Assembly: GCA_022841745.1 (NCBI GenBank)
Contig: JALHQW010000001.1
Location: 15,166-79,165 of the forward strand
Origin: Saprospiraceae bacterium
Lineage (GTDB): Bacteria > Bacteroidota > Bacteroidia > Chitinophagales > Saprospiraceae
Direction of reading: 5' to 3'
Length of the DNA: 64,000 nt
Shown here: positions 5,044 through 62,523 of the stretch, in pieces
Layout: every line of letters begins with the position of its first letter
How positions within the stretch are numbered: position 1 is the stretch's first letter
Notes under the pieces: generated by a model
What the model was told of the DNA's origin: nothing
Seen by the model: only the letters and a program-made list of their open reading frames with translations
The model's database searches: none
Program-made: the position numbers and the translations under genes

Positions 5044-5075
5044 GGATTGAAGGATTGAGGGATTGAAGGATTGAA
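5044..5075 (+). repeat. GGATTGAA x4, abutting a stop codon
   Basis: Four tandem 8-bp units (the second has one change) begin at the base after the TAA of the glucosaminidase gene. They are the inverted partner of six TTCAATCC units at 5260-5307. Confidence 0.9.
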
Positions 5076-5102
5076 TTTGGGCTTCCCGTAAAAAAATGTT
5101 GC

Positions 5103-5263
5103 GGTGCGCTGCACCTTGGGGGCCCGCTTCTGCCGGGCTACAAATATTGCGATGCGCTGCATCTTTGAATTTGGGCATCATGGATTCGAAAGTATTGAGG
5201 TGTGCTGCACCTTGGAACCCTCGCTTCCGTCGGGCAAAGAATGTTGAAGTTTGCTGCACTTCA
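5103..5263 (+). repeat. Four tandem copies of a small hairpin element (about 48-bp period)
   Basis: Cores: GGTGC-GCT-GCACC (5103-5115), GATGC-GCT-GCATC (5151-5163), AGGTG-TGCTG-CACCT (5198-5212) and TGAAGT-TTGCTGC-ACTTCA (5245-5263). Stem bases change in compensating pairs (G-C to A-T) while the GCT loop region stays constant, so the hairpin itself seems to be kept. Each core is preceded by a related AT-rich stretch (such as AAATATTGCG) and units are separated by related sequence (GGGCTACAAA, CGGGCAAAGA). It lies between two convergent genes. A fifth, decayed copy is at 461-490. Confidence 0.75.
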
Positions 5264-5307
5264 ATCCTTCAATCCTTCAATCCTTCAATCCTTCAATCCT
5301 TCAATCC
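5260..5307 (-). repeat. TTCAATCC x6, abutting the pepD stop codon
   Basis: Six perfect 8-bp units followed by TTCC up to the base before the pepD stop (5312). Read with pepD on the minus strand, the units are GGATTGAA, the same sense word that follows the glucosaminidase stop at 5044. Confidence 0.95.
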
Positions 5308-5311
5308 TTCC

Positions 5312-6763
5312 TTATATCTCTTCCAAAGCCCTTAGCAAGAAGCCCCAATACTTTTGCACAGAACTTATCTGCACTTTTTCATCCGGCGAGTGGGCGCCCC
5401 GGATATTAGGCCCAAACGAAATCATCTGCATATCGGGATAATGCTGTCCGACGATGCCGCATTCGAGGCCAGCGTGGCAGGCATAGACATGAGGCTTGGA
5501 TCGGAACATGTCCTCGAAAATGCCGCTCATCACCTTCACGATATGCGAGGATGGATTGGGTGCCCAGCCGGGGTATTCGTTGCCGAATTTTACCTTGGCA
5601 CCAGCCAACTGCATGGTTGCTCGGATGGCATGGGCATGGTCTAATTTTTCAGAATTCACGGAACCACGGGTAAGGCATTGGATGGTAAACTGGCCATCCT
5701 TCACCAAGACCCGGCTTAGGTTGTTGCTGGTCTGTACGAGGTCTTCCACATCGGGACTCATGCGGTGGATGCCATTGGGGCAGGCATAAACCACGGCCGT
5801 GAATTTTTTCTGGAATGGTAAAGCCAATACCGTTGAAGGCATTTCGGATGCTTCGCAAACGACTGCCAAATCTGGGTCGGTGGTGGCGTATTCCGCCTTC
5901 AGTGCGGCGGTTTCGTTTTTTATAAATGTTTGAAAATCAGCTGCTTTTGCCGAAGGCACCACAGCCGTGGCGAAGCATTCACGGGGTATGGCATTGCGCA
6001 AGCTGCCCCCGTCCATGCTGGAAACCCGCAGACCAAATTGCGCAGCAGCCGAGGATAAAATTCGGTTGCACAGCTTGTTGGCATTCCCCCTGCCGAGGTG
6101 GATGTCGGTGCCGGAATGGCCACCCGTCAAGCCTTTGATTCCGATTTTATAGGCCGTCATTCCAGCTGGCACAGGCTCTTGGCGGTACTTGCCTTCACCA
6201 GTAACGTCAATGCCACCGGCGCAGCCGATGGTGAGTTCCCGGTCGTCTTCGGTGTCGAGGTTGAGCATGTATTTGGCGGAGAGGAGGCCGCCTTTCAGGC
6301 CCTTGGCGCCAGTGAGGCCCGTTTCCTCGTCTATGGTGAACAATGCCTCAATGGGAGGGTGGGGGATGGAATCGGAAGCAAGGATGGTCATAATACTGGC
6401 CACGCCGATGCCGTTGTCAGCGCCGAGGGTTGTGCCATCGGCACGCACCCAGTCGCCCTCTACGAGCATCTTGATACCCTCCTTGTCGAAGTCGAACTTG
6501 GTGTCGGCGTTCTTCTGGTGAACCATGTCGAGGTGGCTTTGAAGCAGTAGGGTCGCCTTGCCTTCCATGCCCTTGGTGGCGGGCTTGGTGATGATGACGT
6601 TGCCTACTTTGTCCACCTTTACAGGTAGGCCAAGCTTTTTACCGAAGTTTTTGATAAATTCAATGACCCGTTCTTCTTTTTTTGAAGGACGTGGCACGGC
6701 GTTCAGGTCGGCGAAGTAGTTCCAAAGTTCTCGGGGTTCGAGGTTGCGGATGGCTTGTGACAT
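5312..6763 (-). CDS. pepD: Aminoacyl-histidine dipeptidase PepD (M20)
   Basis: Cytosolic di-zinc exopeptidase hydrolysing Xaa-His dipeptides such as carnosine. At 483 residues it matches the family length. Metal ligands by comparison with Vibrio PepD are His77, Asp116, Glu147, Asp170 and His458; catalytic Asp79 and Glu146 are present in SHLDMVH and TIDEETGL. There is no signal peptide. The ATG at 6763 begins a conserved N-terminus (LEPRELWNYFADLNAVPRPS). Both ends carry short tandem repeats: TTCAATCC units right after the stop, and a degenerate TTTACGA-type block right before the start. Confidence 0.95.
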   Translation of the reverse strand: MSQAIRNLEPRELWNYFADLNAVPRPSKKEERVIEFIKNFGKKLGLPVKVDKVGNVIITKPATKGMEGKATLLLQSHLDMVHQKNADTKFDFDKEGIKMLVEGDWVRADGTTLGADNGIGVASIMTILASDSIPHPPIEALFTIDEETGLTGAKGLKGGLLSAKYMLNLDTEDDRELTIGCAGGIDVTGEGKYRQEPVPAGMTAYKIGIKGLTGGHSGTDIHLGRGNANKLCNRILSSAAAQFGLRVSSMDGGSLRNAIPRECFATAVVPSAKAADFQTFIKNETAALKAEYATTDPDLAVVCEASEMPSTVLALPFQKKFTAVVYACPNGIHRMSPDVEDLVQTSNNLSRVLVKDGQFTIQCLTRGSVNSEKLDHAHAIRATMQLAGAKVKFGNEYPGWAPNPSSHIVKVMSGIFEDMFRSKPHVYACHAGLECGIVGQHYPDMQMISFGPNIRGAHSPDEKVQISSVQKYWGFLLRALEEI

Positions 6764-6803
6764 GGTATGATTTACGATTTACGAATGACGATTGATGATT
6801 GGG
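6764..6803 (-). repeat. Start-abutting repeat block of pepD
   Basis: On the minus strand the 40 bases before the pepD ATG are built from related words (CAATCAT, CAATCGT, CATTCGT, AAATCGT, AAATCAT). G is scarce on this strand. No Shine-Dalgarno sequence is present. Confidence 0.7.
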
Positions 6804-6823
6804 TGCGAAGATAAAAGGGTTTC

Positions 6824-8041
6824 CTAAAAAGCTTCTGCCAAGAAGAAGTATAATCCTCGCTGCCGTTTACCTGGCCCATCTGAATCCTTCTGCAATCCGA
6901 AGGCATAATCCACCCGGATGTTCACCCTTGAGTTTTGATTGAACAAGATGCGGAGGCCACCCCCAGCGGCGAGATTGAAGCGGTCGAAGGCGAATTCGTC
7001 GGCGCTATGGAATGCCTGGGCACCACTGATGAAAGCGACCAGACCGAGGCGTTTCCAAACCTGCCATAGCTTGGAGTCCGAGCCTTCTGCCCAAAATGGC
7101 AATCGGTACTCTGCCTCGAATCCCGCCAAATCGAAGTCTTGGTAGGTTCCCCTGAAATAGCCTCGAATGAACTTATGGCCATTGGTGCGGGACAGCGCAC
7201 GGAAGGGGATGTCTCCATCGCTGGTTTGGATGCTCAAAAAGCCCCGCAGCGCCAGCGTTTGGTTGGATAACGTGTTGACATAGTGCCGGGCATCGAGCAT
7301 GAAACGGGCGTAGTTGTAATCGGCCCCGAACCATTTATGGTAGTGCAGTGCATTGAATTCCACGAGGCTGCCATGCAAGGGATTGGCCACAAAATCACGG
7401 GTATCGTAGAGTAATTGGATGCCTGCCCCTGAGCGCCAACCTGTTACGGGCAATTCAGTCCAGCGAGTTGAATCGGCGTTCAAAAAATGATAAGCATCTG
7501 GAACCGGCTCGTAGTTGAACATGCTTTCCATGTCGTATTGGAGGCCGAGGTAAAGCCCCTTGCCTATTTTGCGCAGCACTACTGGCGAAAACTTGATGCG
7601 GTCTGCCTTGAACAGTAGGTAGTTTAGGGTGTCTTTTGTGTCGTCGGTTTGAGAGGCAATTAGCATTCCCGCATCATTGCCGATGCCGTAGTTGCGGTCG
7701 GTGTAGTGGTTGTAGATGGCCTCGCCCCGTGTGCGCCAGCGGTTTTCCGAGGTAAAGAACTCCCAACGACCCTCGACAAGCAGTTGCTTTGCAGTGGTAT
7801 AAACCGTGAAGAATTCCAATTGAGAAAGCGGGGTTGCAGGGTCGCCTTTTCTAAAGTCAAAATACTTGATGCCAATGACACCTAGCGTCAGTTTTGTTTC
7901 TGGGGAGTAACTGATGGCTGGGAAGACATCGAGTTTTCGGGGCTTTTTTTGCTGCCCAAGGCTGTCCTGTGAGAATGCGGCGAACGAAGCCAAGATTGCA
8001 GCGAGCAAGCAAAGGTTCCGATGGTGTGTTAAAGATTTCAT
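6824..8041 (-). CDS. Outer-membrane surface-antigen barrel (BamA/Omp85 superfamily)
   Basis: A 405-residue protein with a signal peptide ending near residue 25 (ASFAAFSQ) followed by a beta-barrel of the bacterial surface antigen type. Evidence is the alternating aromatic/polar strands, the conserved segment RGYFRGTYQD at about residue 290, the turn LAAGGGLRILFNQNSRVNIR near the end, and the terminal Phe typical of outer-membrane barrels. No POTRA repeats are present and the length is that of a barrel alone, so it is not BamA itself. Bacteroidota carry many such proteins with unknown cargo. It is 61 bp upstream of pepD on the same strand but separated from it by the repeat block. Confidence 0.85.
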   Translation of the reverse strand: MKSLTHHRNLCLLAAILASFAAFSQDSLGQQKKPRKLDVFPAISYSPETKLTLGVIGIKYFDFRKGDPATPLSQLEFFTVYTTAKQLLVEGRWEFFTSENRWRTRGEAIYNHYTDRNYGIGNDAGMLIASQTDDTKDTLNYLLFKADRIKFSPVVLRKIGKGLYLGLQYDMESMFNYEPVPDAYHFLNADSTRWTELPVTGWRSGAGIQLLYDTRDFVANPLHGSLVEFNALHYHKWFGADYNYARFMLDARHYVNTLSNQTLALRGFLSIQTSDGDIPFRALSRTNGHKFIRGYFRGTYQDFDLAGFEAEYRLPFWAEGSDSKLWQVWKRLGLVAFISGAQAFHSADEFAFDRFNLAAGGGLRILFNQNSRVNIRVDYAFGLQKDSDGPGKRQRGLYFFLAEAF

Positions 8042-8155
8042 GAAGGAGAGTTTTGGGGTAAGGTAAGCTGGTTATTTGAGATGGTCAATGAATTTAGTCA
8101 TTAGCCTGGCATTTCAAAACTCGTTTACCTTGCATCATCGCAAAGTGGATGGAAT

Positions 8156-8217
8156 ACGGATTGGGCGGATTGGGCGGGTTTGGACGGATAAAATCCGTGA
8201 TAATCCGTCCAATCCGT
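8156..8217. repeat. Inverted short tandem repeat between divergent genes
   Basis: ACGGATTGGGCGGATT (8156-8171) faces AATCCGTCCAATCCGT (8202-8217), 16 bases with one wobble, around a 30-bp centre that itself holds GGACGGAT/ATCCGT. The words GGATTGGGC and AATCCGTCC repeat inside each arm. It lies between the divergent surface-antigen and AsmA genes; the rest of 8042-8371 shows no gene. Confidence 0.85.
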
Positions 8218-8371
8218 GTGCCATCCTCCTCGCGGCGAACAATAACTATCCCAACCAACCTTACTATAATTTTACGCACCCTTTAAAACAAAATTCGGTT
8301 TGCTGCGATTAAAATCAGGTAGCGTGTGCAAATTCGCCGCTTAAAAGCATCTACCGACAAAAATTCAGAAA

Positions 8372-11467: not shown

Positions 11468-11488
11468 AGAGTTACCGCTTTACCTAAG

Positions 11489-11535
11489 ACAAACCCCGTC
11501 AGTGCATTGATTGCTGACGGGGTTTGTTGTTTTGA
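11489..11535 (+). terminator. Terminator after the AsmA gene
   Basis: ACAAACCCCGTCAG (11489-11502) pairs perfectly with CTGACGGGGTTTGT (11514-11527) around an 11-base loop, followed by TGTTTTG. It is 21 bases past the stop. Confidence 0.9.
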
Positions 11536-11576
11536 TAGAATGATTGGAATCTTTTAAACGAAATTTCAAATTGCTT

Positions 11577-11584
11577 TAGTTTTG
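11577..11584 (+). promoter_or_regulatory. -7 promoter element of fabD
   Basis: TAGTTTTG matches TAnnTTTG in all fixed positions. No clear TTTG sits 19 bases upstream. The implied leader of about 60 bases contains the AATCCG repeat block. Confidence 0.4.
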
Positions 11585-11616
11585 CCCGCTGAATTGGAGG
11601 CGTTGCAGGCAACCCC

Positions 11617-11651
11617 CAATCCGAAATCCGCAATCCAAAATCCGCATTCTT
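11617..11651 (+). repeat. Start-abutting AATCCG repeat block of fabD
   Basis: CAATCCG, AAATCCG, CAATCC, AAAATCCG and CATTCTT run directly into the fabD ATG at 11652. The sense strand is poor in G. Confidence 0.85.
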
Positions 11652-12530
11652 ATGAGGGCTTATATTTTTCCCGGCCAGGGTTCGCAGTTTGAAGGCATGG
11701 GCAAGGACATGTACGAGAACAATGGCTACGCCAAGGAGCTATTCGAGCAGGCCAATGATATACTGGGTTATCGCATCACGGATGTGATGTTCGAGGGTGA
11801 TGCAGAAGCGTTAAAGCTCACCAAAATCACGCAGCCCGCTGTATTTCTTCACTCCATTGTAAAAGCAAAAATTGCTGGTGCTGATTTTCAACCCGGGGCT
11901 GTTGCTGGGCATTCGTTGGGTGAGTTCTCGGCGTTGGTGGCGGCTGGCGGCTTGACTTTCGAGGATGGCTTGCGATTGGTACAGCAGCGGGCGATGGCCA
12001 TGCAGCGGGCTTGCGAAATGACAGAGGGCACCATGGCTGCCGTACTAGGCCTATCCGATGAGCAGGTGGAAGAGATTTGCGCCAGTATTGAAGATGTCGT
12101 CGTTCCCGCCAACTACAATTGTCCCGGTCAATTGGTGATTTCTGGCTCAGTGCCTGGCATTGAAGCGGCTGTGGCTAAGTGTACCGAGGCTGGAGCCAGC
12201 AAGGCCATTGTGTTACAAGTGGGAGGGGCGTTCCACTCGCCATTGATGCAGCCTGCAAAGGAGGAACTGACAGCGGCATTGGAAGCGACTAATTTCACAA
12301 AACCGGTTTGCCCTATTTACCAGAATGTGAATGCTCTGCCAGAGACTGACCCTGATAAAATACGCCAAAACCTCGTTGACCAATTGACGGCACCAGTGCG
12401 GTGGACACAGACCATGCAAAACATGATTGCAGATGGCGTAACGGAGTTCATTGAGGTGGGTGGAACTGGCAAGGTGCTTCGTGGTTTTGTGGCAAGGGTT
12501 GATAGACGATTCCCGACTGCTGCATTATAA
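11652..12530 (+). CDS. fabD: Malonyl CoA-acyl carrier protein transacylase FabD
   Basis: Transfers malonyl from CoA to acyl carrier protein, supplying the extender for fatty acid synthesis in the cytosol. The 292 residues are a normal length. Visible motifs are FPGQGSQ (residues 6-12), the nucleophile Ser88 in GHSLGEFSALVAAG, Arg113 in QQRAMAMQ and His195 in GGAFHSPLM. The ATG lies directly after a tandem repeat block instead of a Shine-Dalgarno sequence. No other fatty acid gene is adjacent, so it appears to be a single-gene unit. Confidence 0.97.
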   Translation: MRAYIFPGQGSQFEGMGKDMYENNGYAKELFEQANDILGYRITDVMFEGDAEALKLTKITQPAVFLHSIVKAKIAGADFQPGAVAGHSLGEFSALVAAGGLTFEDGLRLVQQRAMAMQRACEMTEGTMAAVLGLSDEQVEEICASIEDVVVPANYNCPGQLVISGSVPGIEAAVAKCTEAGASKAIVLQVGGAFHSPLMQPAKEELTAALEATNFTKPVCPIYQNVNALPETDPDKIRQNLVDQLTAPVRWTQTMQNMIADGVTEFIEVGGTGKVLRGFVARVDRRFPTAAL

Positions 12531-12837
12531 CCAAATTTGATGAAAATCCTTGCTGGTGATGAAAATCATCTATTTGTTTTGCCAAAATGGAAATTCAAAG
12601 CATGGACTAAACAACCAAAGGCCGGGGGTTCAATTTTATGTGTTTTTTTCATCCATCGTAGGCCATAATCTGTTCTTTACTGGCCGACTACTTTTTTTAT
12701 TTGTATTTTTTCAAATCTTGCTGCAATTTGGCGCTTGAATTATTGAAGATATTGGCGATTATGGATATTAAACCATTGTCATTTTTACTTGTTTTGACAA
12801 TGTTTTTCCGATTTTCAAAAATCCAGCAACGTTAAAA
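12531..12837. other. Intergenic stretch, no gene recognised
   Basis: AT-rich spacer between fabD and the YqgE gene. A 62-codon frame at 12550-12738 has no family resemblance. TTGTTTTG at 12789-12796 is a seven-of-eight match to the -7 box at a sensible distance from 12838, but has no partner upstream. Confidence 0.5.
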
Positions 12838-14942: not shown

Positions 14943-16251
14943 ACGACTACATACTGACGAAGCATTCCTCAATCACGCATGGAATGAGATGCGTAAGCAA
15001 CTCGATGCGGAGATGCCAACTATGGGGGACCAGCGACGCCACAGGTTTGGATGGTATTGGTGGCTTGCAATGATGGGCTTTCTTGTCCTGTCAGTTGGGA
15101 CGGGTTATGCTATTTGGAACAAAAAACCGGTAAAGCCAACCACTGAGGCTACCAAGCCAATTGCTGTAGAATTTACCCCCATGGGGAATTCCAACCAAAC
15201 ACCCTTGTCATCGGAGCATGATATTCAATCAGATTTGAATGAAAAAGCAGGTAACGCCATTGCACCAAACAACTTAGGGAAGGAAGGACAAAAGGTATTA
15301 AGGCAAAGCAACCATATTGTGAAGCAACAACCGTCAGAAGTAAACAATAGCGGCAAATTGATGGATCTGACTGCGAGCCAATCACCTTTAACTACGCAAG
15401 GAACGATAAAACCACTTGAAACGAACATTGGAAAAACAGTTGAAAAAACGGAAATAGTCATTCCGTTGGCAGTATTGGCCGGCGAACCGCTTGAGCAGTT
15501 AGGGATAGCTGATTTTCCCATAGCCAACACAACGCCCAGCATTGCATTCATAGAGCCAGTTAAAAAGAACAGCCGAAGAATTGCCATCGAGGCTGGTTAC
15601 ATGCGCTCTATTGACAATCCTGCATCGGGAGTAGGCTTGGGACTCATGGTTTGTAAGTCCTTGAAGAGCACCAAGTTCAACCTACAATTTGGGTTGGGTT
15701 ATAATTTTGTCCAACAGCCACTTGGCGTTGAGCTTGCGAGTTCTTCGCTTGATGGAAGTGGCGATTTGGCGGAGCAAGTCGTTTTTTATGGTACAGAAAT
15801 CGGCAAAGCCGATGAAGCATTGATACCCTCCAATACAGCCGTACGCACCAGCCGACAAACAGGACTTAATCTTCATTACCTGTCGGCGCCTATGCGTATA
15901 ACATGCTCTATTACCAACAGGCTCACCTTGAAGATGGGCATTGATGCAGCAATCTTGTTGCGGGCGAAATCTGAATATGTGAAAGGAGGCGTTTTTGAAA
16001 GGTCGGCATTGTCATTTGCTGGTTTAGATTACGACTCTGAAGCCTCAGGTTCTGAGGCTTCAAACAAAAATGTCGTTGCTCCCTTTGATTTGGTATCAAC
16101 TGTGGGCATCGAATACCGAATCAGCAACCGACTTAGCTTAGCCTCGCAATTCAGGTATGGTTTGATTGATGTGTTGCCCAAAAACACTATAGCCGATTAC
16201 AACCGTCTGTTACAACTAAGCCTTTTCTACCATTTGCCCAATAGGAAGTAA
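14932..16251 (+). CDS. Probable sigma-factor partner: inner-membrane anchor plus barrel-like periplasmic domain
   Basis: A 439-residue protein overlapping the sigma gene by 11 bp. The cytoplasmic N-terminus (about 1-40) is short and charged and could bind the sigma factor. One membrane segment lies at about 43-63 (WWLAMMGFLVLSVGTGYAIW). It is followed by a low-complexity Thr/Asn/Pro-rich linker (about 65-200) and a C-terminal domain (about 215-439) with alternating strands like the PorT/outer-membrane barrel family, ending in LFYHLPNRK. This layout recurs beside Bacteroidota ECF sigma factors. Anti-sigma function is inferred from position and topology; no zinc-binding ZAS motif is seen. Confidence 0.75.
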   Translation: MQDRRLHTDEAFLNHAWNEMRKQLDAEMPTMGDQRRHRFGWYWWLAMMGFLVLSVGTGYAIWNKKPVKPTTEATKPIAVEFTPMGNSNQTPLSSEHDIQSDLNEKAGNAIAPNNLGKEGQKVLRQSNHIVKQQPSEVNNSGKLMDLTASQSPLTTQGTIKPLETNIGKTVEKTEIVIPLAVLAGEPLEQLGIADFPIANTTPSIAFIEPVKKNSRRIAIEAGYMRSIDNPASGVGLGLMVCKSLKSTKFNLQFGLGYNFVQQPLGVELASSSLDGSGDLAEQVVFYGTEIGKADEALIPSNTAVRTSRQTGLNLHYLSAPMRITCSITNRLTLKMGIDAAILLRAKSEYVKGGVFERSALSFAGLDYDSEASGSEASNKNVVAPFDLVSTVGIEYRISNRLSLASQFRYGLIDVLPKNTIADYNRLLQLSLFYHLPNRK

Positions 16252-40474: not shown

Positions 40475-43400
40475 ATGACGAAGACGATTATATGGACAGC
40501 CATAGTGCTTTTAATGCTTGGCGGCTGTCAAAATAAACCAGCTGGTGAGGCACAGTTCAAGCTTTTAAGGAAGGATGAAACAGGTCTAGATTTCACAAAC
40601 AATCCTAAACAAACGGGCGGCTTCAATGTCCTGAAGTACATGTACTTCTTTAACGGTGGTGGCATAGCTGCGGGCGATTTCAACAACGACGGGATGGTTG
40701 ACCTATTCTTTACCGCCAACCAAACCCAGAACAAGCTATTCCTTAACCAAGGGAACCTCAAATTCACAGAAGTAACGGACAAGACAGGCCTAACCGAGAA
40801 AATAGAGGGCTTGAAGTGGAGCACTGGGGCATCAGTCGTGGACATTAACAATGACGGCATGCTCGACATTTACGTGAATGGGGTGGGGGACTACCAAGGT
40901 GTAAAGGGAAGGAACCAGCTCTGGGTTTGCCAAAAAATAGAAAACGGAATTCCTGTTTTCAAGGATATGGCCACAGCGTATGGCCTTGATTTTCAAGTAT
41001 TTGGCACGCAAGCTACCTTCTTCGACTACGACCTTGATGGCGACCTTGATGTGTTCCAACTCAACCACTCACTGCATCAAAATGGCACTTTTGGCCAGCG
41101 GCGGCAGTTCGCTGGGAAGCAGCACCCGCAGTCAGGTGATAAGCTGCTCCGCAATGACTCCCACCTCTTAGATGAGGGTGTGAATGGTGGCAAATTCACG
41201 GATGTTACGTTGGAGGCTGGGATCAACAGCACGGTCATTGGCTACGGCCTCGGCGTGGTGACGGGAGACGTGAACAACGATGGTTGGCCGGACATCTACA
41301 TCGGCAACGATTTCCATGAAAACGATTACCTCTACATCAACCAGCGAAATGGTAATTTCAAGGAGGTGCTGACCGAGTCAATGCAACACACCAGCCGTTT
41401 CTCAATGGGTGTTGACATCGGCGACGTGAACAACGATGGTTGGGGCGACATTGTCTCGCTTGATATGCAACCGGAAGACCCTGAAATCCTGCGAAGCTCG
41501 CTCGGCGAGGATGGCTTTTCGCAATTCCAATTCAAGCTTGGCTATGGTTACAACGAGCAGTTTGCGCATAATGCCCTTCAAATGAACCTGGGGCTTTATT
41601 CAGCCTACTTGCCTGGGAGTCCTTTTTCGGCCCTTAGTTCATTTGGCCCGCCAATCTCCAGCCCAAAATTCTCCGAAATATCAAGGTTTGCTGGCGTTTT
41701 CGCCACCGATTGGTCATGGGCGGCGCTGTTCTGCGACTTCGACCACGATGGGCAAAAAGACTTGTTTATCAGCAATGGTATCCCCCGACGCATGAATGAT
41801 ATTGATTATGCCAATTTCATGGCCAGCGACGAAAAGAACGACAAATGGCAGTACGTGGACAGCCTCGATAACCCCGACCTTAAAGTGGTGGAACGGATGC
41901 CTAAAATCAAGTTGCCCAATAAATTTTACCGAAACACGGCTTCGCACGGTGGTGGGTTAGGTGTGAAATTCGATGACCTTGCCGACCAGATTTCAGGCAG
42001 CCAGCCCAGCTACTCCAACGGCTCCATCTATGCCGACCTCGACAGCGACGGCGACCTCGACATCGTGACAAACAATATCCAAGACGAACCCTTCGTCTAT
42101 CAGAACTTAACCGTTGAGAACAAGCAACCTAATCATAACTTCTTAAAAATCAACTTAAAAGGAACCGACAAAAACCTGAACGCCATCGGAGCGAGGGTAG
42201 TTGTTTTCAAAAAAGGCAGCGAAAAAATAGTGTATGAAAATTACCCCGTGCGTGGCTACCAATCCAGCATGCTAGGGCCACTGCACATCGGGCTTGGCGA
42301 CACGACGACATTGGATTCTGTTGTGGTCATTTGGCCAAACCGCCAGTCCCAACGACTTGCCAATCTCAAATATAACAGTACCATAGAGGTGGTGTTCGAC
42401 TCAGAAAATGCCCTGATTTTTGATTTCAAATTATTGGCTGAAAAAGCACCACCACCATATTTGTTTTCCTCATCAGAGCTTGAGGATAAGCGACTTAAGA
42501 TATTTAAGCACTTTAATGTACTTGATTTTATCCACGAAGAAAACCCCTTTGTTGAGTTCAACCGGGAGGGGCTAATACCGCACATGGTTTCAGCCGAGGG
42601 GCCTGCGTTGGCTGTTGGCGATGTGAACGGTGACGGGCTTGATGATGTGTTTTTCGGCTCCGCAAAAAGGGAAAAATCCGCCCTCTACCTCCAAAAAATG
42701 AGTGGCATTTTTGAATTAAAAACGCCTACCGCTATACTTACCGACAGCATATTCGAGGACGTGGACGCTACCTTCGCAGACCTCGACAGCGATGGCGACC
42801 AAGACCTCGTCGTTGCCGCTGGCGGCAACGAGTATCGGGGGAAAGAGGAGGCCATGAAGCAGCGCTGGTACCGCAATGACGGCAACTACAACTTCCAACG
42901 CATTGATTTTCAGGGCGTTTACATGACCGCTGGCACTGTGGCCGTCGCTGATTTTGATGGCGACAAATTGCCAGATGTATTCCTCGGTGCAAGGGCATTG
43001 CCTTGGAACTATGGCATCGTGCCGACCTCCGTTTTGCTCCGCAACAAAGGCAATGGACAGTTTGAGAATGTGACCGAAATGGTCGCTAAAGGGCTTTCAA
43101 AGGTTGGCTTCGTAAAGGATGCTTCTTGGGCGGATATGGACGCCAACGGCTCGCCTGATTTGGTGCTCGCTATGGAATGGGGGCCAATCACTGTTTTTTA
43201 CAATGATGCCAAGTCGCTCGTTCAATCCGCAATCCACAATCCACAATCCGAAATCGCAACTGGATGGTGGAACTTTGCCCTTCCCTACGACTTCGACGGT
43301 GATGGCGACTTGGACATTTTGGCGGGCAATACAGGGATCAACAGCCGATTAAAGCCAACGCCTGAACAGCCGGTGCGGATGTATGTGGCAGATTTTGACG

Positions 43401-43972
43401 GAAACGAGCAGGTGGAACAACTACTGACGTTTTGGCTAGGAGGAAAAGAGATTCCTTTTGCCACACATGCCGAAATCATCAAGCAATTACCATCGCTCAA
43501 AAAGAATTTCCTTTATGCCAAGGACTTCGCCAAGGCCAGTGCCGCCGACCTAGTGGGGCAGGCTGCGTTGAAAAAAGCAGTGAAATGGGAGGCGAATGAA
43601 TTCACCAGTATGTATTTTGAAAATATTGGTAAAGGTGAATTTGCATCCCACCCCTTGTCCGAAGAGTTGCAGTTTTCTACCCTCAACGCCGCCGAACTAG
43701 CCGACCTCGACGGCGATGGTAAAATGGAGGTGTTGCTCCACGGCAACTTCTCGCAGTGCAACATCGAAATGGGGCGCTACGATGCGCTATATGGAAACGT
43801 CCTTCGCATAGGCAAGGGCGGTAAGATGGAGGTTTTCCCCCTCGGCAATGTGCGGATTGATGGCGAGGTTCGCCGGATTGGGCGAGTGAAATTGGGCAAT
43901 GGGAACGGGTTCGTTTTTGCGAGAAACAATGGGGCGGCAGTGCTTCTGAAGCCTGAAAACCCATTGGAATAG
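40475..43972 (+). CDS. CRTAC1-like FG-GAP/ASPIC lipoprotein (second copy)
   Basis: About 1165 residues; lipobox Cys in LLMLGGC. It is a paralogue of the protein at 34621 with the same order: FG-GAP blades (DFNNDGMVD, DINNDGMLD, DYDLDGDLD, DVNNDGWPD, DLDSDGDLD), ASPIC/UnbV module at about 555-640 (VRGYQSSMLGPLHIGLG, VIWPNRQSQ), and a second propeller (DVNGDGLDD, DLDSDGDQD, DFDGDGDLD). I start at ATG 40475; the frame open to 40388 would overlap the YWTD gene. The stretch 43221-43257 is a short tandem repeat read in frame as QSAIHNPQSE, giving a loop a few residues longer than in the paralogue. Last gene of the operon. Confidence 0.93.
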   Translation: MTKTIIWTAIVLLMLGGCQNKPAGEAQFKLLRKDETGLDFTNNPKQTGGFNVLKYMYFFNGGGIAAGDFNNDGMVDLFFTANQTQNKLFLNQGNLKFTEVTDKTGLTEKIEGLKWSTGASVVDINNDGMLDIYVNGVGDYQGVKGRNQLWVCQKIENGIPVFKDMATAYGLDFQVFGTQATFFDYDLDGDLDVFQLNHSLHQNGTFGQRRQFAGKQHPQSGDKLLRNDSHLLDEGVNGGKFTDVTLEAGINSTVIGYGLGVVTGDVNNDGWPDIYIGNDFHENDYLYINQRNGNFKEVLTESMQHTSRFSMGVDIGDVNNDGWGDIVSLDMQPEDPEILRSSLGEDGFSQFQFKLGYGYNEQFAHNALQMNLGLYSAYLPGSPFSALSSFGPPISSPKFSEISRFAGVFATDWSWAALFCDFDHDGQKDLFISNGIPRRMNDIDYANFMASDEKNDKWQYVDSLDNPDLKVVERMPKIKLPNKFYRNTASHGGGLGVKFDDLADQISGSQPSYSNGSIYADLDSDGDLDIVTNNIQDEPFVYQNLTVENKQPNHNFLKINLKGTDKNLNAIGARVVVFKKGSEKIVYENYPVRGYQSSMLGPLHIGLGDTTTLDSVVVIWPNRQSQRLANLKYNSTIEVVFDSENALIFDFKLLAEKAPPPYLFSSSELEDKRLKIFKHFNVLDFIHEENPFVEFNREGLIPHMVSAEGPALAVGDVNGDGLDDVFFGSAKREKSALYLQKMSGIFELKTPTAILTDSIFEDVDATFADLDSDGDQDLVVAAGGNEYRGKEEAMKQRWYRNDGNYNFQRIDFQGVYMTAGTVAVADFDGDKLPDVFLGARALPWNYGIVPTSVLLRNKGNGQFENVTEMVAKGLSKVGFVKDASWADMDANGSPDLVLAMEWGPITVFYNDAKSLVQSAIHNPQSEIATGWWNFALPYDFDGDGDLDILAGNTGINSRLKPTPEQPVRMYVADFDGNEQVEQLLTFWLGGKEIPFATHAEIIKQLPSLKKNFLYAKDFAKASAADLVGQAALKKAVKWEANEFTSMYFENIGKGEFASHPLSEELQFSTLNAAELADLDGDGKMEVLLHGNFSQCNIEMGRYDALYGNVLRIGKGGKMEVFPLGNVRIDGEVRRIGRVKLGNGNGFVFARNNGAAVLLKPENPLE
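43221..43257 (+). repeat. In-frame AATCC-type repeat block inside a coding sequence
   Basis: TTCAATCCGC, AATCCAC, AATCCAC and AATCCG words, the same type as the block before fabD, lie within the second FG-GAP gene and preserve its frame. Confidence 0.85.
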
Positions 43973-55321: not shown

Positions 55322-55325
55322 GCCT

Positions 55326-56555: not shown

Positions 56556-56650
56556 ACAAGTCAATTTTACCGTGCGAAGTAGCGAAAAAATAAGCACATC
56601 AAAGATTATCTCATGAAAAGAAATAGGTAAGTTGAACAAGGCAGGCGCTT

Positions 56651-56686
56651 CTTGAGAGGGCGGGTTTGATAACCCGCCCTCTCAAG
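56651..56686. other. Perfect 16-bp hairpin without a T tract
   Basis: CTTGAGAGGGCGGGTT (56651-56666) pairs with AACCCGCCCTCTCAAG (56671-56686) around TGAT. Neither strand has a U-run after it. It lies between the divergent MFS and ychF genes, about 96-131 bases upstream of the MFS start. Confidence 0.8.
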
Positions 56687-56781
56687 AGGTACCGAGGTTT
56701 TGCATAAAACCCTGCTACAACCATTTTTATGAGAAAGACCTTCATGCACATCTACTTGTTTTTTCAGTTGAGGTTAAATCC

Positions 56782-56789
56782 TATCTTTG
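56782..56789 (+). promoter_or_regulatory. -7 promoter element of ychF
   Basis: TATCTTTG is a full TAnnTTTG match; TTG at 56756-56758 is 23 bases upstream. The leader of about 97 bases contains the TTCATCA repeat block. Confidence 0.5.
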
Positions 56790-56804
56790 CGCCCGTTTTT
56801 GAAA

Positions 56805-56885
56805 ATGATGAATAATGAATGGTGGGTTACTGAAGCCAGGCATTTAATTCATCATTCTACCTTTCATCATTCATCATTCATCATT
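56805..56885 (+). repeat. ATGATGAAT...TTCATCATTCATCATT repeat block in the ychF leader
   Basis: GATGAATAATGAATGG (56808 on) faces an array of TTCATCA words (56850-56885) that ends 7 bases before the ychF start. The two halves can pair. Confidence 0.8.
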
Positions 56886-56891
56886 TATAAA

Positions 56892-57989
56892 ATGCCCTTA
56901 CAAGCAGGTATCGTAGGACTTCCCAATGTTGGCAAATCTACCCTCTTCAATGCTTTGACCTCTGCCAAGGCACTTGCTGCCAACTATCCTTTTGCCACCA
57001 AAGACCCCAACGTGGGCATCATCACTGTTCCCGACGCACGTTTGGACAAACTGAATGAACTGGTGAACCCCAAGTCATTGGTGCCTACGACCATAGAAAT
57101 CGTGGACATTGCTGGTTTGATAAAAGGTGCCAGCAAGGGCGAGGGTTTGGGCAATCAATTCTTGGCAAATATCCGGGAAGTGGACGCTATTATCCACGTT
57201 GTCCGCTGTTTCAGGGATGATAATGTGGTACACGTGGACGGCGGCGTTGACCCCGTGCGTGACAAGGAAGTAATTGATACCGAGTTGATTCTCAAGGATA
57301 TAGATTCGGTAGAGAAACGCATAGACCGTTTGCGGAAGCAAGCCAAGACGGGCAAAAAAGAAGACGCTCATGCCGTTACAGTTGCGGAGGGTATCATGGA
57401 GCATTTGAACCAAGGCAACCCCGCCCGTTCGCTGCAACTGGAGGGCGACGATGCCGAACTGCTCCGTGATATGATGTTGCTGACGGCAAAACCTGTGCTC
57501 TATGTTTGCAATGTAGATGAAGCCAGCGTCAACGATGGCAATCAATACACAGAGAGGTTCAAGGAAGCTGTTAAATCAGAACCGGCTGAGGTCATTTACA
57601 TCAGTGCGGCCATTGAAGCCGAAATTGCCCAGATGGAGACAATCGAGGAGCGTAATGAATACCTTGAAATGATTGGCCTTCACGAACCCGGTGTGAACCG
57701 CCTGATTCGTGCCACATATAAATTACTCGACCTGATTACCTACTTCACGGTTGGTGAAAAAGAAGTCCGTGCATGGACCATCCGCCGGGGCTGGAAAGCA
57801 CCAAAAGCAGCGAGCGTCATCCACACCGATTTCGAAAAAGGCTTCATTCGTGCCGAGGTCATCAAGTTCGATGACTGGGTGAAGTATGGCTCAGAAGCTG
57901 CCATAAAAGAAGTCGGTAAAATGGGTGTGGAAGGCAAAGAGTACGTCGTTCACGATGGCGATTGCATGCACTTCCGCTTCAATGTTTGA
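56892..57989 (+). CDS. ychF: Redox-regulated ATPase YchF (Obg-family OLA1)
   Basis: A 365-residue ribosome-associated P-loop protein of the Obg group, which prefers ATP over GTP. Walker A GLPNVGKST with Lys15, the switch segment DIAGLIKGASKGEGLGNQFL, NVDE in place of NKxD (YVCNVDEAS), and a C-terminal TGS domain (about 280-365, LITYFTVGEKEVRAWTIRRG, HTDFEKGFIRAEVI) are all visible. The start at 56892 (MPLQAGIVGLPN) matches the family; the open frame to 56787 lies in the repeat-containing leader. Confidence 0.97.
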   Translation: MPLQAGIVGLPNVGKSTLFNALTSAKALAANYPFATKDPNVGIITVPDARLDKLNELVNPKSLVPTTIEIVDIAGLIKGASKGEGLGNQFLANIREVDAIIHVVRCFRDDNVVHVDGGVDPVRDKEVIDTELILKDIDSVEKRIDRLRKQAKTGKKEDAHAVTVAEGIMEHLNQGNPARSLQLEGDDAELLRDMMLLTAKPVLYVCNVDEASVNDGNQYTERFKEAVKSEPAEVIYISAAIEAEIAQMETIEERNEYLEMIGLHEPGVNRLIRATYKLLDLITYFTVGEKEVRAWTIRRGWKAPKAASVIHTDFEKGFIRAEVIKFDDWVKYGSEAAIKEVGKMGVEGKEYVVHDGDCMHFRFNV

Positions 57990-58054
57990 TGGAAAATCGG
58001 TGGCAGGTTTTATTGCCTAAAGCCGGCTACCCATCATCCCCCACAAACTATTCG

Positions 58055-58088
58055 CCGTCCACCGTAGGCCGTCCACCGTTTACCGTAT
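58055..58088 (-). repeat. ACGGTGG-type repeat abutting a stop codon
   Basis: On the minus strand the block starts in the last codon and stop of the T9SS type B gene and continues as ACGGTGGACGG, CCTACGGTGGACGG. Sense strand is G-rich. Confidence 0.75.
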
Positions 58089-60227
58089 TAAGGTAACATT
58101 GCCCTTCTTGGCAAATGATTGCCCATCCTCACATTTGACGATGGCGTAAAACCCATACACATCAGGAGGCAGTTGCTTGCCATTATAAGTTCCGTCCCAA
58201 CCAATGGAAGGGTCGTTTGACTCAAAAACCTGCTCGCCCCAGCGGTCATAAACGATGATGTTTGCTTCCGTTAGGTCATTTCCAAAGACCTTGAACACAT
58301 CGTTTTTCCCATCACCATTTGGCGTGAACCCTGTAGGGATGAAGATGAATGGCTCCTCGCACAGCGTCAGTACCACTATTAATAGTTGCCGCTCGATAAT
58401 ACAGCCATTGCCATCCACGACTTGTAAAGTATATCCCGTTGTTTTTTCTGGGCTTGCAATTGGGTCGTGCCCAGTTGGATTGTCCAAGGAATTGGATGGA
58501 TTCCAGTTATAGCTAAAGTTGGGGCCGAAAGTAGCAGTCAATTGCACCGAGTCGCCCCTTAGAATAGTGTCAATTGGTGGAGCAACCTCAATCTCGGCGG
58601 GTACAAAAACAAAGACCCTTCTTTCAACCTCACAAAAACCTGTAGCATCTGTCAAAATGACCTGATAAACGATGGATGTGTCGGGAGAGGCCGTAGGGTT
58701 GATACCGTTTGAATTATCGAGCCAATCGGGGGGGGACCAACTGAAAGTGGCGGCTTGGTATGCACTATCAGGGTTGAGTTGGACTGCACCATTTTCAAGG
58801 CAAAGTTTTAATGAATCTGCCAAGGACTCGTTGTTGAAAATCACAACAGGTATCTCCTGTTGGAATGTATCCAAACAGCCATTTTCAGCAGTAACAATCA
58901 GGCTTAATAAAGCAGGGCCAGGGCTGTCCAAACTGAATATGGGGTTTTGAACCGTATCAGTCCAAGTATTGCTGCCTTGTTCCAGTGCCCAGTTCCAATC
59001 AACGATGTCCACCAAGGTATCAATAGATGAATTGGTGATAGTTAGGACAAACTCCTCCTCGCATTCAACATTGGAAATTTCAAAATCGGCAAACAAAGAG
59101 TTGATATTGAGCTGTACGGGTGCCGAAAAAGTATCCGCACAAACGGTGCCTGGTTCTGAAATCAGTGTGATATTGTACAGCCCTGTATCAGGATAAGTAT
59201 AGGTTGGGTTCTCTAAATTGGAAGTGGCATTTGGGTTGGTGGGGTCATTGAAGAACCAAGCGTAGTCATTGGCATTGATGCTTTGGTTGTCCAGGTTCAC
59301 CGTCAGGCCTTTGCAAATGACTTCAGGTGCAAAAAACGAGGCTGTCGTGACCGCACATTGGCCGATGTTCACTTGGTAATCACGCCGTTTTGAGCCTATG
59401 AAAACGCCGTTTCGGTATTCCTCCACGCAGATGCCAATGACAAACTGACCAATGATTTGGGGCGTCCCGGTCAACAGGCCAGTACTTGGGTCTATGGTCA
59501 TAAAAGGTGGCCCTCCGATTTGGTTGTTGGCATTGTAAGTTGGAAACCAAGGCACGGGAAAATAAGGTGGAGGGTTGGGTGGTTGGGGCCTCGGATTCGA
59601 GGGAGTTGCCCCAGTGAGCGGGTCGCAAAGCCTATAAACCAAGGAATCCCCATCAGGGTCAATTGCCGATTGGTCAATCTCAAAAGGCTCATTTACACAC
59701 AAGTATAGCGGTGGCCAGTTATTGAAAACGGGACTGCTATTGCAGGTTGCCAAAGCAAAACTGTCCAAAATAATGCTATAGGTTGCGCCGACGCTATCGG
59801 GCAATACGAGGTTGGAAATTGTCCGATTCCTGCAACAGCGTTGGTAGGACAGGTAGTATCCTCCCACGATATACGGCAGCGTATCAATATGCGTGTAAGT
59901 GGTGGTATGGACGCATACATTTGGCGGTACAGCCAAGCATGGGTTGTTCAACACGGGGTCGAGCGTGTCGTTCAACATGGAATCCAAGGGGATATAGAAG
60001 GTTTTGATAAGCTGGTTGGTCAGGTTCGAGAAGACACCGATGGCAGCTGGAGCATCAAACCAAGGCTCGCCATTGTAGCAGTCCCTAAAAATCGTCAGCT
60101 TTATTTTATAAACGTTGTTGCCAATGCATTCATAATTCATTTCACCGCCGACAATATGCGTTGCCTTGGCTCCGAAAGGATCTAAGCTCAACAGTACAAT
60201 AGCCAACAGTTGAAGTCGCTTGGACAT
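58080..60227 (-). CDS. T9SS type B secreted protein with PKD-like domains
   Basis: A 715-residue secreted protein. Signal peptide to about residue 22 (DPFGAKA). The N-terminal region opens with THIVGGEMNYECIGNNVYKI, a pattern of large Bacteroidota surface proteins, with a cadherin-like stretch (IDPDGDSLVYRLCDPL, DPSTGLLTGTPQIIGQF at about 185-275). PKD-like modules follow (about 300-400, YTYPDTGLYNITLISEPG) and Ig-like units to about 620. The gliding-motility C-terminal domain is complete: FIPTGFTPNGDGKNDVFKV, VYDRWGEQVFES, KKGNVTLIR. Likely a surface adhesin. The stop codon sits in a short tandem repeat. Confidence 0.92.
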   Translation of the reverse strand: MSKRLQLLAIVLLSLDPFGAKATHIVGGEMNYECIGNNVYKIKLTIFRDCYNGEPWFDAPAAIGVFSNLTNQLIKTFYIPLDSMLNDTLDPVLNNPCLAVPPNVCVHTTTYTHIDTLPYIVGGYYLSYQRCCRNRTISNLVLPDSVGATYSIILDSFALATCNSSPVFNNWPPLYLCVNEPFEIDQSAIDPDGDSLVYRLCDPLTGATPSNPRPQPPNPPPYFPVPWFPTYNANNQIGGPPFMTIDPSTGLLTGTPQIIGQFVIGICVEEYRNGVFIGSKRRDYQVNIGQCAVTTASFFAPEVICKGLTVNLDNQSINANDYAWFFNDPTNPNATSNLENPTYTYPDTGLYNITLISEPGTVCADTFSAPVQLNINSLFADFEISNVECEEEFVLTITNSSIDTLVDIVDWNWALEQGSNTWTDTVQNPIFSLDSPGPALLSLIVTAENGCLDTFQQEIPVVIFNNESLADSLKLCLENGAVQLNPDSAYQAATFSWSPPDWLDNSNGINPTASPDTSIVYQVILTDATGFCEVERRVFVFVPAEIEVAPPIDTILRGDSVQLTATFGPNFSYNWNPSNSLDNPTGHDPIASPEKTTGYTLQVVDGNGCIIERQLLIVVLTLCEEPFIFIPTGFTPNGDGKNDVFKVFGNDLTEANIIVYDRWGEQVFESNDPSIGWDGTYNGKQLPPDVYGFYAIVKCEDGQSFAKKGNVTLIR

Positions 60228-60379
60228 AAGGTTTCGATTGACAAATTTTCTAAAGGCAAATTAGGCAACCCACTTCGTTACCTGCCACTAAAGTCCAATT
60301 TTTGTTTGTTTGTAGCCAAAAAAAATGAAAACATGCCAATGGTCAGCCACCTAACCGCTACATTAGTGCCTCAATTTTT

Positions 60380-61900
60380 ATGAAAATCTTCCATATAGAA
60401 CAGATACGCCGCTTGGATGCCCTCACCATCGAGCGGGAACCCGTCTCATCCATCAACCTGATGGAACGGGCTTCTCGGTCATTTTGCCAGTGGTTTGCCC
60501 GGCAGTTCCCGAACCGCAACCAAAAAATCTTCATTTTTTGCGGAACGGGCAACAATGGCGGCGATGGACTCGCCATTGCACGGTTACTATCCAAGGATTT
60601 TTACGATGTAACGGCCCATGTGCTTTACCTGACGCCAGAACTCAGCAAGGACGCCGCCGAAAACCTGCGAAACCTCAGAAGGGTAGGGGGCAGCGTGATT
60701 GGAAAAGAATATAGGGAGGGTGAAACCAAATTGCCCAATTTGCCTGCAGGCTCCATCCTAATTGATGCCATACTTGGGAGCGGTTTGAACAAACCAGTGC
60801 TTGGTTATTGGGCCAATTTCATGGAGCACCTTAACACCCAACCCGTAACTAAAGTCGCTGTGGACATTCCTTCCGGCATGTTTGCCGATAAGCCCACATC
60901 GGGGGTTTCCATCTTGGCTGATTGGACGTTCAGTTTCGAGTTCGCCAAACTTGGTTTCCTTTTCCCAGAAAACCAGCACCGCATCGGCAAATGGATGTGC
61001 GGGAACATCGGGCTGCACCCACAAGCGGTTCAAAATGAGCCGACACCTAATTTTATTTTGGATGAAAAAATGGTGAAGCCATTGCTGCGCACCCGCCACC
61101 GCCACGACCACAAGGGCACCTTTGGCCATGCGCTCCTGGTTGCAGGCAGTTATGGGAAAATGGGCGCTGCCATCCTCGCATCAAGGGCTTGCCTAAGGAG
61201 TGGGGCTGGATTAGTGAGCATCCATTCCCCCAAATGTGGTTATGAAATCCTCCAAATCTCCGTGCCAGAGGCAATGGTCAGCGTGGACGAGCACCAATAT
61301 GCCGTTACGCATGTTCACGAGGATTTGTTGAAATACAAGGCTATCGGCATCGGTTGCGGCATTGGCACCAACGAACTGGCTGCCCAGGGCTTGGCGGATG
61401 TATTGCAACGCACCAAATGCCCTGTGGTACTAGACGCCGACGCCTTGAACCTCTTGGCAGGCCACCCCGATTTTTTCAAATTGGTTCCAAAAGACAGTAT
61501 CCTGACGCCGCATGTCAAGGAGTTCGAGCGGATGTTCGGCACTACGGCCAATGATTTTGAACGGAATGCGCTTCAAATCCAGAAGGCCAAGGAATTGGGC
61601 ATTTACCTGATTCTGAAAGGTGCAAACACTGCCATTGCCTGCCCCGATGGCCACTGTTTTTTCAACAACAATGGCAATCCCGGCATGGCCACGGGTGGCA
61701 GCGGCGATGTGCTGACGGGTATCCTGACGGGGCTTTTGGCACAGGGCTACCCGCCATTGGAAGCCTGTCAGTTGGGCGTCTATTTGCACGGCATGGCTGG
61801 CGACCTCGCCATGCTCGACCAACAGCAGGAGGCCCTGCTGGCCAGCGACATCATCGCCCAAATTGGCCGTGCCTTCAAACACCTTCGCCCAGTCGAATGA
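60380..61900 (+). CDS. nnr: Bifunctional NAD(P)H-hydrate epimerase / ADP-dependent dehydratase
   Basis: A 506-residue metabolite-repair enzyme. The N-terminal epimerase domain (about 1-215, YjeF_N) has LMERASRSF and CGTGNNGGDGLAIARLL; the C-terminal ribokinase-like dehydratase domain (about 225-500) has the nucleotide and catalytic motif NPGMATGGSGDVLTGIL near residue 440. Together they convert the damaged hydrates NADHX and NADPHX back to NADH and NADPH. It overlaps rlmH by 4 bp. Confidence 0.96.
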   Translation: MKIFHIEQIRRLDALTIEREPVSSINLMERASRSFCQWFARQFPNRNQKIFIFCGTGNNGGDGLAIARLLSKDFYDVTAHVLYLTPELSKDAAENLRNLRRVGGSVIGKEYREGETKLPNLPAGSILIDAILGSGLNKPVLGYWANFMEHLNTQPVTKVAVDIPSGMFADKPTSGVSILADWTFSFEFAKLGFLFPENQHRIGKWMCGNIGLHPQAVQNEPTPNFILDEKMVKPLLRTRHRHDHKGTFGHALLVAGSYGKMGAAILASRACLRSGAGLVSIHSPKCGYEILQISVPEAMVSVDEHQYAVTHVHEDLLKYKAIGIGCGIGTNELAAQGLADVLQRTKCPVVLDADALNLLAGHPDFFKLVPKDSILTPHVKEFERMFGTTANDFERNALQIQKAKELGIYLILKGANTAIACPDGHCFFNNNGNPGMATGGSGDVLTGILTGLLAQGYPPLEACQLGVYLHGMAGDLAMLDQQQEALLASDIIAQIGRAFKHLRPVE

Positions 61901-62370
61901 AAGCAGAACTTTGGTATATCGGCAAAACGGCATTCGGCTACTTGGACGAAGGGATGGCCATTTATGAAAAACGCTTGGGCCATTACCTCAGCTTTTCTAC
62001 CACCTTGATTCCCGATATAAAAAATGCGGGCAGCCTCAACCCCGAGCAACTCAAGCAAAAAGAAGGAGAAGCTGTATTTTCCAAATTGAAGAAGGATGAT
62101 TTTATAGTTTTGCTGGACGAAAAGGGCAAGCAATTGACCTCAGTCGAGTTTTCTACCTTTATGGAGCAACGGCTTCAAATGGGTTCCAGGCGATTGGTGT
62201 TCCTGATTGGAGGCGCCTGGGGCTTCTCCGAGGAACTTTACCAGCGTGCCGATTTCAAGCTTTCTTTGTCAAAAATGACTTTCTCCCATCAAATGGTCAG
62301 GCTGTTCTTTTTGGAACAACTTTACCGTGCCATGACCATTTTGCGGGGAGAGAATTACCATAATGAATGA
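61897..62370 (+). CDS. rlmH: 23S rRNA pseudouridine1915 N3-methyltransferase RlmH
   Basis: A 157-residue SPOUT methyltransferase acting on pseudouridine 1915 of 23S rRNA in the assembled ribosome. The length is normal. Diagnostic motifs are LLDEKGKQLTSVEFS (about 70-85), FLIGGAWGFSEELY (about 102-115, SAM knot) and the C-terminal HQMVRLFFLEQLYRA. The usual end YHR reads YHNE here. The ATG overlaps the nnr stop. Confidence 0.96.
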   Translation: MKAELWYIGKTAFGYLDEGMAIYEKRLGHYLSFSTTLIPDIKNAGSLNPEQLKQKEGEAVFSKLKKDDFIVLLDEKGKQLTSVEFSTFMEQRLQMGSRRLVFLIGGAWGFSEELYQRADFKLSLSKMTFSHQMVRLFFLEQLYRAMTILRGENYHNE

Positions 62371-62456
62371 GTTGGCAGTTTGACAGGTCTTGTAACGGTT
62401 CTTCGGGATGGCAGTGGGCAGTCTGGGGCTGCTAAGCCTTCTAGGCAGCATCTAGT

Positions 62457-62523
62457 ATATAGTAACCAGTAACATGAACCAGTAACCACCATCCAGTAAC
62501 CAGTAACCAGCATCCAGTAAATT
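62457..62523 (+). repeat. Start-abutting CCAGTAA repeat block of the rhomboid gene
   Basis: AGTAACCAGTAAC, ACCAGTAACCA, CATCCAGTAACCAGTAACC and CATCCAGTAAATT run into the ATG at 62524. The sense strand is C/A-rich. Upstream, 62401-62450 holds G-rich GGCAGTGGGCAGT words after the rlmH stop. Confidence 0.85.

Follow-up and report, generated by a model that had tools for sequence, protein, structure and literature searches.

The stretch analyzed here (hereafter the window) comprises 64,000 nucleotides, positions 15166 to 79165 of contig C1 (JALHQW010000001.1) in the 8.43-Mb assembly GCA_022841745.1 of a Saprospiraceae bacterium. It carries short tandem-repeat arrays at the edges of genes for a glucosaminidase, PepD, FabD, YchF, a protein with a type IX secretion system (T9SS) signal, and a rhomboid protein. 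Pfam matches support the adjoining genes (glucosaminidase, M20 peptidase, acyl transferase of the FabD type, YchF, CHU_C type IX signal, and rhomboid). Such arrays form a dispersed class, mostly of four 7- or 8-base units (∼32 bp), whose G-rich strand reads outward from the gene and which often occur as an inverted pair within one intergenic gap. A sequence-only reading of the window had placed seven repeat blocks at gene edges, and all of them exist at or within a few bases of those places:

5042 to 5075, plus strand: G-arm, 4.2 units of the 8-base word AAGGATTG; left arm of an inverted pair, starting within the stop codon of the glucosaminidase gene (4234 to 5043, plus strand)
5076 to 5258, no strand: loop separating the two arms, with four small GGTGCGCTGCACC-like palindromes
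5259 to 5310, plus strand: C-arm, 6.5 units of CTTCAATC with zero mismatches; right arm of the pair, 1 nt short of the pepD stop codon (pepD, 5312 to 6763, minus strand)
6769 to 6801, minus strand: lone array of GATTTAC/GATTGAC forms, separated by 5 nt from the start of pepD, on whose sense strand it is C-rich
11617 to 11646, plus strand: array of AATCCGA/C ahead of fabD (ATG at 11652), in a gap without a detected partner
56804 to 56824, plus strand: G-arm of the ychF leader pair
56847 to 56885, plus strand: C-arm of the ychF leader pair, 5.4 units of ATTCATC, 6 nt before the ATG at 56892
58055 to 58088, minus strand: array of the ACGGTGG kind, overlapping the stop codon (58080 to 58082) of the type IX signal gene (58080 to 60227, minus strand)
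62461 to 62520, plus strand: C-rich array of AGTAACC, organized in a higher-order unit of 21 bases, 3 nt upstream of the rhomboid start at 62524

Six of the seven blocks were detected by Tandem Repeats Finder, and the seventh, at the T9SS gene, was evident from reading the sequence. As had been claimed, all blocks (7/7) read G-rich away from the adjoining gene. Two of them had been described inexactly: the block reported at 56805 to 56885 before ychF is a repeat, but consists of two arms and not of one array, and the array said to follow the T9SS gene directly does lie at the gene end, but overlaps the stop codon instead of following it. Clear inverted partners were present in two gaps, for three of the seven arrays (5042-5075 with 5259-5310, and 56847-56885 with 56804-56824; score reached by 0 of 500 shuffles). 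The partner of the T9SS block was weak (26 of 500 shuffles reached its score), and searches within their own gaps gave no partner for the pepD-start, fabD, and rhomboid blocks (401, 343, and 369 of 500 shuffles). It is this frequent inverted partnership between the two arrays flanking a gap that the sequence-only reading overlooked.

The genome of the window (G000) is of the Saprospiraceae type, its YchF having its nearest relatives in metagenome bins of this family. It was sampled as 40 stretches of 20 kb plus the window, 864 kb in total or ∼10% of the assembly. Genes were called with our own hexamer script, by which some N termini seem shortened, and the calls divided the sample into 157 kb of intergenic and 707 kb of coding DNA. 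The intergenic part contained 159 arrays with periods up to 12, whereas five shuffles averaged 12.8. Most of these arrays had a period of 7 or 8 (67 and 61, versus 0 and 0.4 in the shuffles); the coding DNA held 82 arrays of period up to 12. Arrays of periods 7 to 9 were concentrated at gene edges: 77 of 135 lay no more than 8 nt from an edge, versus 23.3 (standard deviation, 3.7) after random placement within their own gaps. The word AATCCGA had 266 matches genome-wide, and the pattern read backwards had none.

Within 10 nt of an edge, the orientation of the G000 arrays was nearly invariant, those on the start side being C-rich on the sense strand in 25/25 cases and those on the stop side G-rich in 51/54. 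The sibling genomes G008 (11/11 at starts, 16/16 at stops), G004 (4/4 and 12/12), and G007 (5/6 and 8/8) followed the same rule. Pooled over 2.17 Mb from five genomes of one Saprospiraceae genus (G000, G008, G004, G007, and G001), 50 of 51 arrays lying no more than 10 nt from a start were C-rich on the sense strand, and 91 of 94 equally close to a stop were G-rich. Thus, neither a lack of orientation bias nor an equal frequency at random intergenic positions, the two outcomes that the sequence-only reading had named as fatal to its proposal, was observed. The rule also held in G014, a member of another genus (1/1 and 2/2), and in 80 ychF neighborhoods from Saprospirales and relatives, siblings of G000 included, whose genes were called with one pooled model (starts, 7/7; stops, 10/12). 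Convergent stop-stop gaps taken alone, again within 10 nt and in the five genomes, obeyed it in 45 of 46 arrays. Ascertainment bias, by which C-rich arrays would lie hidden in the 3′ ends of open reading frames (ORFs), was dismissed, as just 1 of 44 coding arrays came as close as 60 nt to a 3′ end, and this one was G-rich. An artifact of metagenome assembly is unlikely, since pairs or arrays next to ychF also occur in records whose titles indicate isolates (L130, L128, and L143).

The strand rule is a matter of geometry: whichever strand is read, G-rich arrays occupy the left edges of gaps and C-rich arrays the right edges. With the two often being inverted partners of each other, the rules for starts and stops reduce to a single one, G-arm first and C-arm second. 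Inverted repeats with a score of at least 32, repeats other than arrays included, linked the two halves of 54 of 393 gaps, whereas shuffled partners would give 0.4. Complementary partners within their own gap were found for 40/74 edge arrays in G000, 21/27 in G008, 15/17 in G004, and 12/14 in G007, whereas other gaps supplied one at rates of 1.1, 2.2, 1.2, and 0.0%, respectively. In these partner searches, as in the comparisons of terminators, orthologous gaps, and −7-like motifs described below, arrays of G001 were accepted at a Tandem Repeats Finder score of 30 and those of all other genomes at 36. Hairpins formed by arrays had the G-arm first in 65 of 70 cases, whereas the 98 inverted repeats of other kinds were unpolar (47 G-first, 36 C-first). 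Pairing across a gene, in place of pairing across a gap, was rejected: neighboring gaps shared a word in 10 of 29 cases versus 32% of random gap pairs, with loose word clusters, the largest of which took in 66 of the 135 arrays.

Edge arrays of period 7 and of period 8 both peak in length near 32 bp, and four units is the commonest count (38/76 and 28/65, respectively). Arms are also shared between gaps as irregular pieces: 57 pairs of arrays from different gaps had an exact irregular stretch of at least 22 bp in common. The longest exact copy, an irregular 35-mer, occurs in the left arm at window positions 5042 to 5075 and, inverted, in the right arm at contig C7 70116 to 70149. The suggestion of the sequence-only reading that a repeat family sits at gene edges is supported, the family being strand-biased, composed of many words, and in part dispersed. 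Arms of the same word were no more alike within a gap (median likeness, 0.81; n = 28) than between gaps (0.825; n = 251; P = 0.67); arms therefore share a word and are not simple mirror copies, and the idea that pairs arise solely by direct inverted copying is unsupported. An earlier version of this comparison was strongly positive (0.72 versus 0.21) but mixed different words, and it was dropped.

Inverted, dispersed doublets bring to mind REP/REPIN elements, short intergenic inverted doublets present in many copies. The Saprospiraceae arrays could accordingly be mobile doublets moved by the REP-associated (RAYT, Y1 family) transposase of the same genomes, and copy numbers do differ strongly between siblings: the word AATCCGN in three consecutive units had 0 to 206 matches per genome, with matches in 9 of 13 siblings. 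Of the 14 genomes of the genus, 12 had Y1 transposase hits, and the genome of the window alone had 9 such hits. Unlike REP/REPIN doublets, with their conserved REP sequence and its own imperfect palindrome, however, the arrays show no fixed element sequence: words differ between gaps, and the arms are tandem arrays of changeable words that are not themselves palindromic. The shared unit, moreover, is the single arm, which may be the left arm in one gap and the right arm in another. Nor do Y1 counts track the matches to AATCCGN (62 matches and no Y1 hit in G013, which is 78% complete; no match and 8 Y1 hits in G009). We regard such mobile doublets as improbable.

The words change between siblings. 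A comparison of orthologous flanks, advised by the sequence-only reading, gave a divided result, with words replaced at some gaps and kept at others. In the gap 3′ of pepD, matched words (assigned by eye) were GGATTGAA in G000, GGATTTGA in G013, GTGAGAGG in G001, and GGATTGGA in G012; G008 had TTTGAGG there, with GGATTGAA-type units on the right side (also by eye). Between G001 and G013, whose gene flanks are ∼88% identical, arrays were present in 3 of 14 orthologous gaps, and in 2 of these 3 both sides had changed to another word. The ychF leader retained its −7-like motif, with different pairs in G000, G008, and G004 and no pair in G005 or G009. One such comparison covered 143 gap pairs, of which 33 carried an array on one side or both and 8 on both; since single loci recur in several genome pairs, these counts are not independent. 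G004 and G011, in which the start was not located, are left out of the fabD comparison, and for the same reason G001, G012, and G013 are left out of that for the rhomboid gene and G012, G007, and G010 out of that for the ychF leader. In a phylum-wide search, three units of TTCAATCC, the single word tried at that scale, were found in the genome of the window only (1/148), so words are local to lineages.

Matched arms whose word changes on both sides could also be the work of a word-blind boundary system, in which some activity lays down one short word, by writing or copying, from each flank of a gap in the outward direction and later rewrites it with another. Such writing might proceed by template switching between the ends of a gap or by DNA ends being extended repeatedly and then joined; the product would formally resemble two telomere-like arrays joined head to head. 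If so, each gap would carry a matched inverted pair of four units with fixed polarity, and boundaries would be marked by pairing and polarity and not by sequence. We consider this quite improbable, somewhat more so than the doublets.

Arrays in convergent gaps were associated with a scarcity of ordinary terminators. As called by our own script, hairpin-plus-T terminators were present in none of 28 convergent gaps shorter than 300 bp with edge arrays but in 47 of 124 without, and over all lengths 3 were seen in array gaps versus 12.1 expected (stratified z = −3.56). This association suggests that arrays replace terminators in short convergent gaps; a putative role as insulators is possible.

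These data also bear on the view that the pairs are RNA hairpins under selection, serving as terminators, as insulators, or as blocks to read-through translation, with selection on base pairing maintaining the complementarity of the arms. The gap-specific pairing, not shared across genes, and the short convergent gaps just described would fit, as does the distribution of inverted repeats of any kind, which were commonest in convergent gaps (36/145), followed by codirectional (67/620) and divergent gaps (11/225). The ychF leader, folded from inferred 5′ ends, is predicted to form a strong hairpin beside the AUG that includes both arms in G000 (z = −3.4), and it folds strongly with other words in G008 (z = −8.8). 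However, the fold is lost in G011 (z = 0.08), and the array-free leader of G005 (z = −2.45) is about as low as the array-bearing one of G004 (z = −2.6), which makes the latter not decisive. Array pairs also occur in divergent gaps. Selection at the RNA level should furthermore be more tolerant of G·U than of A·C, yet codirectional array hairpins had 28 G·U and 31 A·C mismatches on their sense strand; RNA pairing thus bears no direct mark of selection. Hairpin selection is possible, but in our judgment rather unlikely.

The sequence-only reading had named, first among several options, unstructured landing sites for ribosomes; as G-poor translation leaders, the arrays would receive ribosomes or a regulator. 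Consistent with this, start-side arrays are C-rich on the sense strand in all but one of the pooled cases, the pepD leader is predicted to be unstructured (−0.6 kcal/mol), as had been proposed, and the fabD array is kept in three genomes. A −7-like motif was found in the last 60 nt before the ATG at only 1 of 37 array starts versus 15% of 989 others, and within 60 nt upstream of the array at 10 of the 37; arrays therefore tend to sit within the leader. Moreover, the G-strands of 137 edge arrays contained 609 start codons and their C-strands 49, a simple reason for keeping the G-strand out of leaders that does not explain the convergent gaps. As a general account, landing sites fail on these same gaps, where the rule holds in 45/46 arrays with no start nearby, and they do not explain why more arrays lie at stops or why a G-arm closes the ychF leader into a strong hairpin beside the AUG. 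Start-specific ribosome sites were thus rejected as the general explanation, and translation leaders seem hardly probable as the basis of the class. The claimed replacement of the Shine-Dalgarno region by the blocks counts as weak evidence, given how little Bacteroidota use this signal.

Tandem arrays of heptamers with variable words are familiar from cyanobacterial STRR sequences and from heptanucleotide repeats in tRNA-Leu introns. In searches of open-licence literature only, we found nothing on this array family or on word replacement at paired arms, which is no proof of absence. The gene-edge strand rule as such is already in print for other phyla. The excerpted text of Rehm et al. 2015 (PMC4692102) describes mostly intergenic heptamers, GGGAATC in Xanthomonas and GGGGA(C/T)T in Nostoc 7120, with a preference for four units. 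Their G-rich strand is the antisense one up to 50 bp upstream of ORFs and the sense one up to 50 bp downstream of stops, overlap with the stop included. They are under-represented between divergent ORFs, and two Xanthomonas genomes contain 70 and 75 inverted pairs, with pair or single type mostly kept between these genomes. The Saprospiraceae arrays share the four-unit preference, the strand rule, the inverted pairs, and the scarcity in divergent gaps (8 of 70 array hairpins). According to the same excerpts, the heptamers essentially comprise one word per organism, are capable of forming quadruplexes, and have few pairs in Nostoc, whereas the Saprospiraceae arrays comprise many words, 8-base words among them, are mostly incapable of forming quadruplexes, differ in word at orthologous gaps, and coincide with scarce terminators in short convergent gaps.

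In the excerpts of Rehm et al. 2015, the four-unit count is linked to G-quadruplexes, four units giving four G-tracts, and the shared unit count and strand rule would speak for the same cause here. Yet 80 of 141 edge arrays fall short of four GG tracts, and the rule nevertheless holds in 77 of them. GG is absent altogether from 35 of the 141, whose median length is still 32 nt and of which 33 conform, and four GGG tracts were present in only 8. Outward polarity and four-unit length thus hold for many words, and since they persist without GG, a cause other than the quadruplex is needed. As a general cause it is contradicted by the GG-poor arrays and appears extremely improbable, although it could still fit a few words rich in G-tracts.

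A second precedent, in the excerpted text of MacGregor 2015 (PMC4679880), is provided by sets of TAACTGA upstream of starts in Beggiatoaceae and in some Bacteroidetes; these sets have one orientation, mostly lack a ribosome binding site, and were proposed to serve as translation-leader sites for ribosomes or a regulator. In Flexibacter litoralis (Bacteroidetes), 12 of 14 sets point to the start and one set is reversed after a stop (MacGregor 2015). The likeness to our arrays lies in heptamer sets of one orientation just upstream of starts; TAACTGA repeats are a single word, and within-gap inverted pairing or a rule at stops is not among the features that these excerpts describe. TAACTGA is not among the words of the window blocks, which are AAGGATTG, GATTTAC, AATCCGA, ATTCATC, ACGGTGG, and AGTAACC; TAACTGA-like units are present at one Saprospirales locus (L121).

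Taken together, we tentatively favor, with confidence just short of even, copying of arm-sized pieces at the DNA level, the copies being kept at gene boundaries and, in convergent gaps, acting as two-way 3′-end hairpins. Arrays would spread and be renewed by such copying, to which the shared irregular stretches point. The polarity would belong mainly to the pair itself, because the strand rule holds in convergent gaps, and may be reinforced at starts, given the abundance of start codons on the G-strand and their near absence from the C-strand. At convergent gene ends the pair could then make ordinary terminators dispensable and leave its word free to change. Several observations weigh against this. 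No copying enzyme was identified. Partners are far from universal: 34 of the 74 G000 edge arrays have none, and 4 of the 7 window blocks have no clear one. Unlike words face each other across 5 of 31 gaps (loose clusters). A separate comparison showed the same for the gap at G000 C10 28863 to 29022, where the arms are unlike in G000 and matched in G008, which speaks against a pure swap. Replacement is also not general, as one of the three array-bearing gaps of G001 and G013 was unchanged, one divergent gap retains its words in G004 and G008, and the fabD array is retained in G000, G001, and G013. For the hairpin role, the divergent gaps with array hairpins are difficult, as no transcript should cover both arms; G·U was not enriched over A·C; and convergent gaps of at least 300 bp had terminators no scarcer with edge arrays (3/7) than without (19/48). 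With the count of a single word ranging from 0 to 206 among siblings, and with word swaps at both arms of some orthologous gaps, this genus allows direct tests of how such repeats arise and what they do.

Some further repeats were observed. A sibling, G011, has a similar array ahead of pepD, although the longest open frame displayed for this locus in G011 is not pepD. Inside called genes of four genomes, the 44 period-7/8 arrays comprised 29 that were C-rich and 13 that were G-rich on the sense strand; in the window, a CAATCCG array (43223 to 43259) lies within a long open frame (40514 to 43972, plus strand). At window positions 8157 to 8220, a CGGATTGGG array stands opposite AATCCG units in the divergent gap before 8372, distant from both gene edges. 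A stretch related to the palindrome-bearing loop at 5076 to 5258 occurs at G000 C10 46474 to 46545, and TGCGCTGCACC recurs at window position 478. Upstream of ychF, window positions 56640 to 56720 hold the palindrome GAGAGGGCGGGTTTGATAACCCGCCCTCTC; GGTTTGATAACCC has 9 occurrences in the 864 kb, mainly as close inverted pairs. The palindrome AGTTTAGTAAACG had 44 hits in the sample, and the first ten listed all fall into a cluster in long repetitive gaps on G000 contig C2 (53660 to 58069). A non-array inverted repeat with arms of ∼100 bp and a loop of 29 bp lies on contig C11 (20933 to 21207), and the window itself begins with a tandem repeat (1 to 434) of three copies of a 137-bp unit, each made up of two related halves of ∼68 bp.

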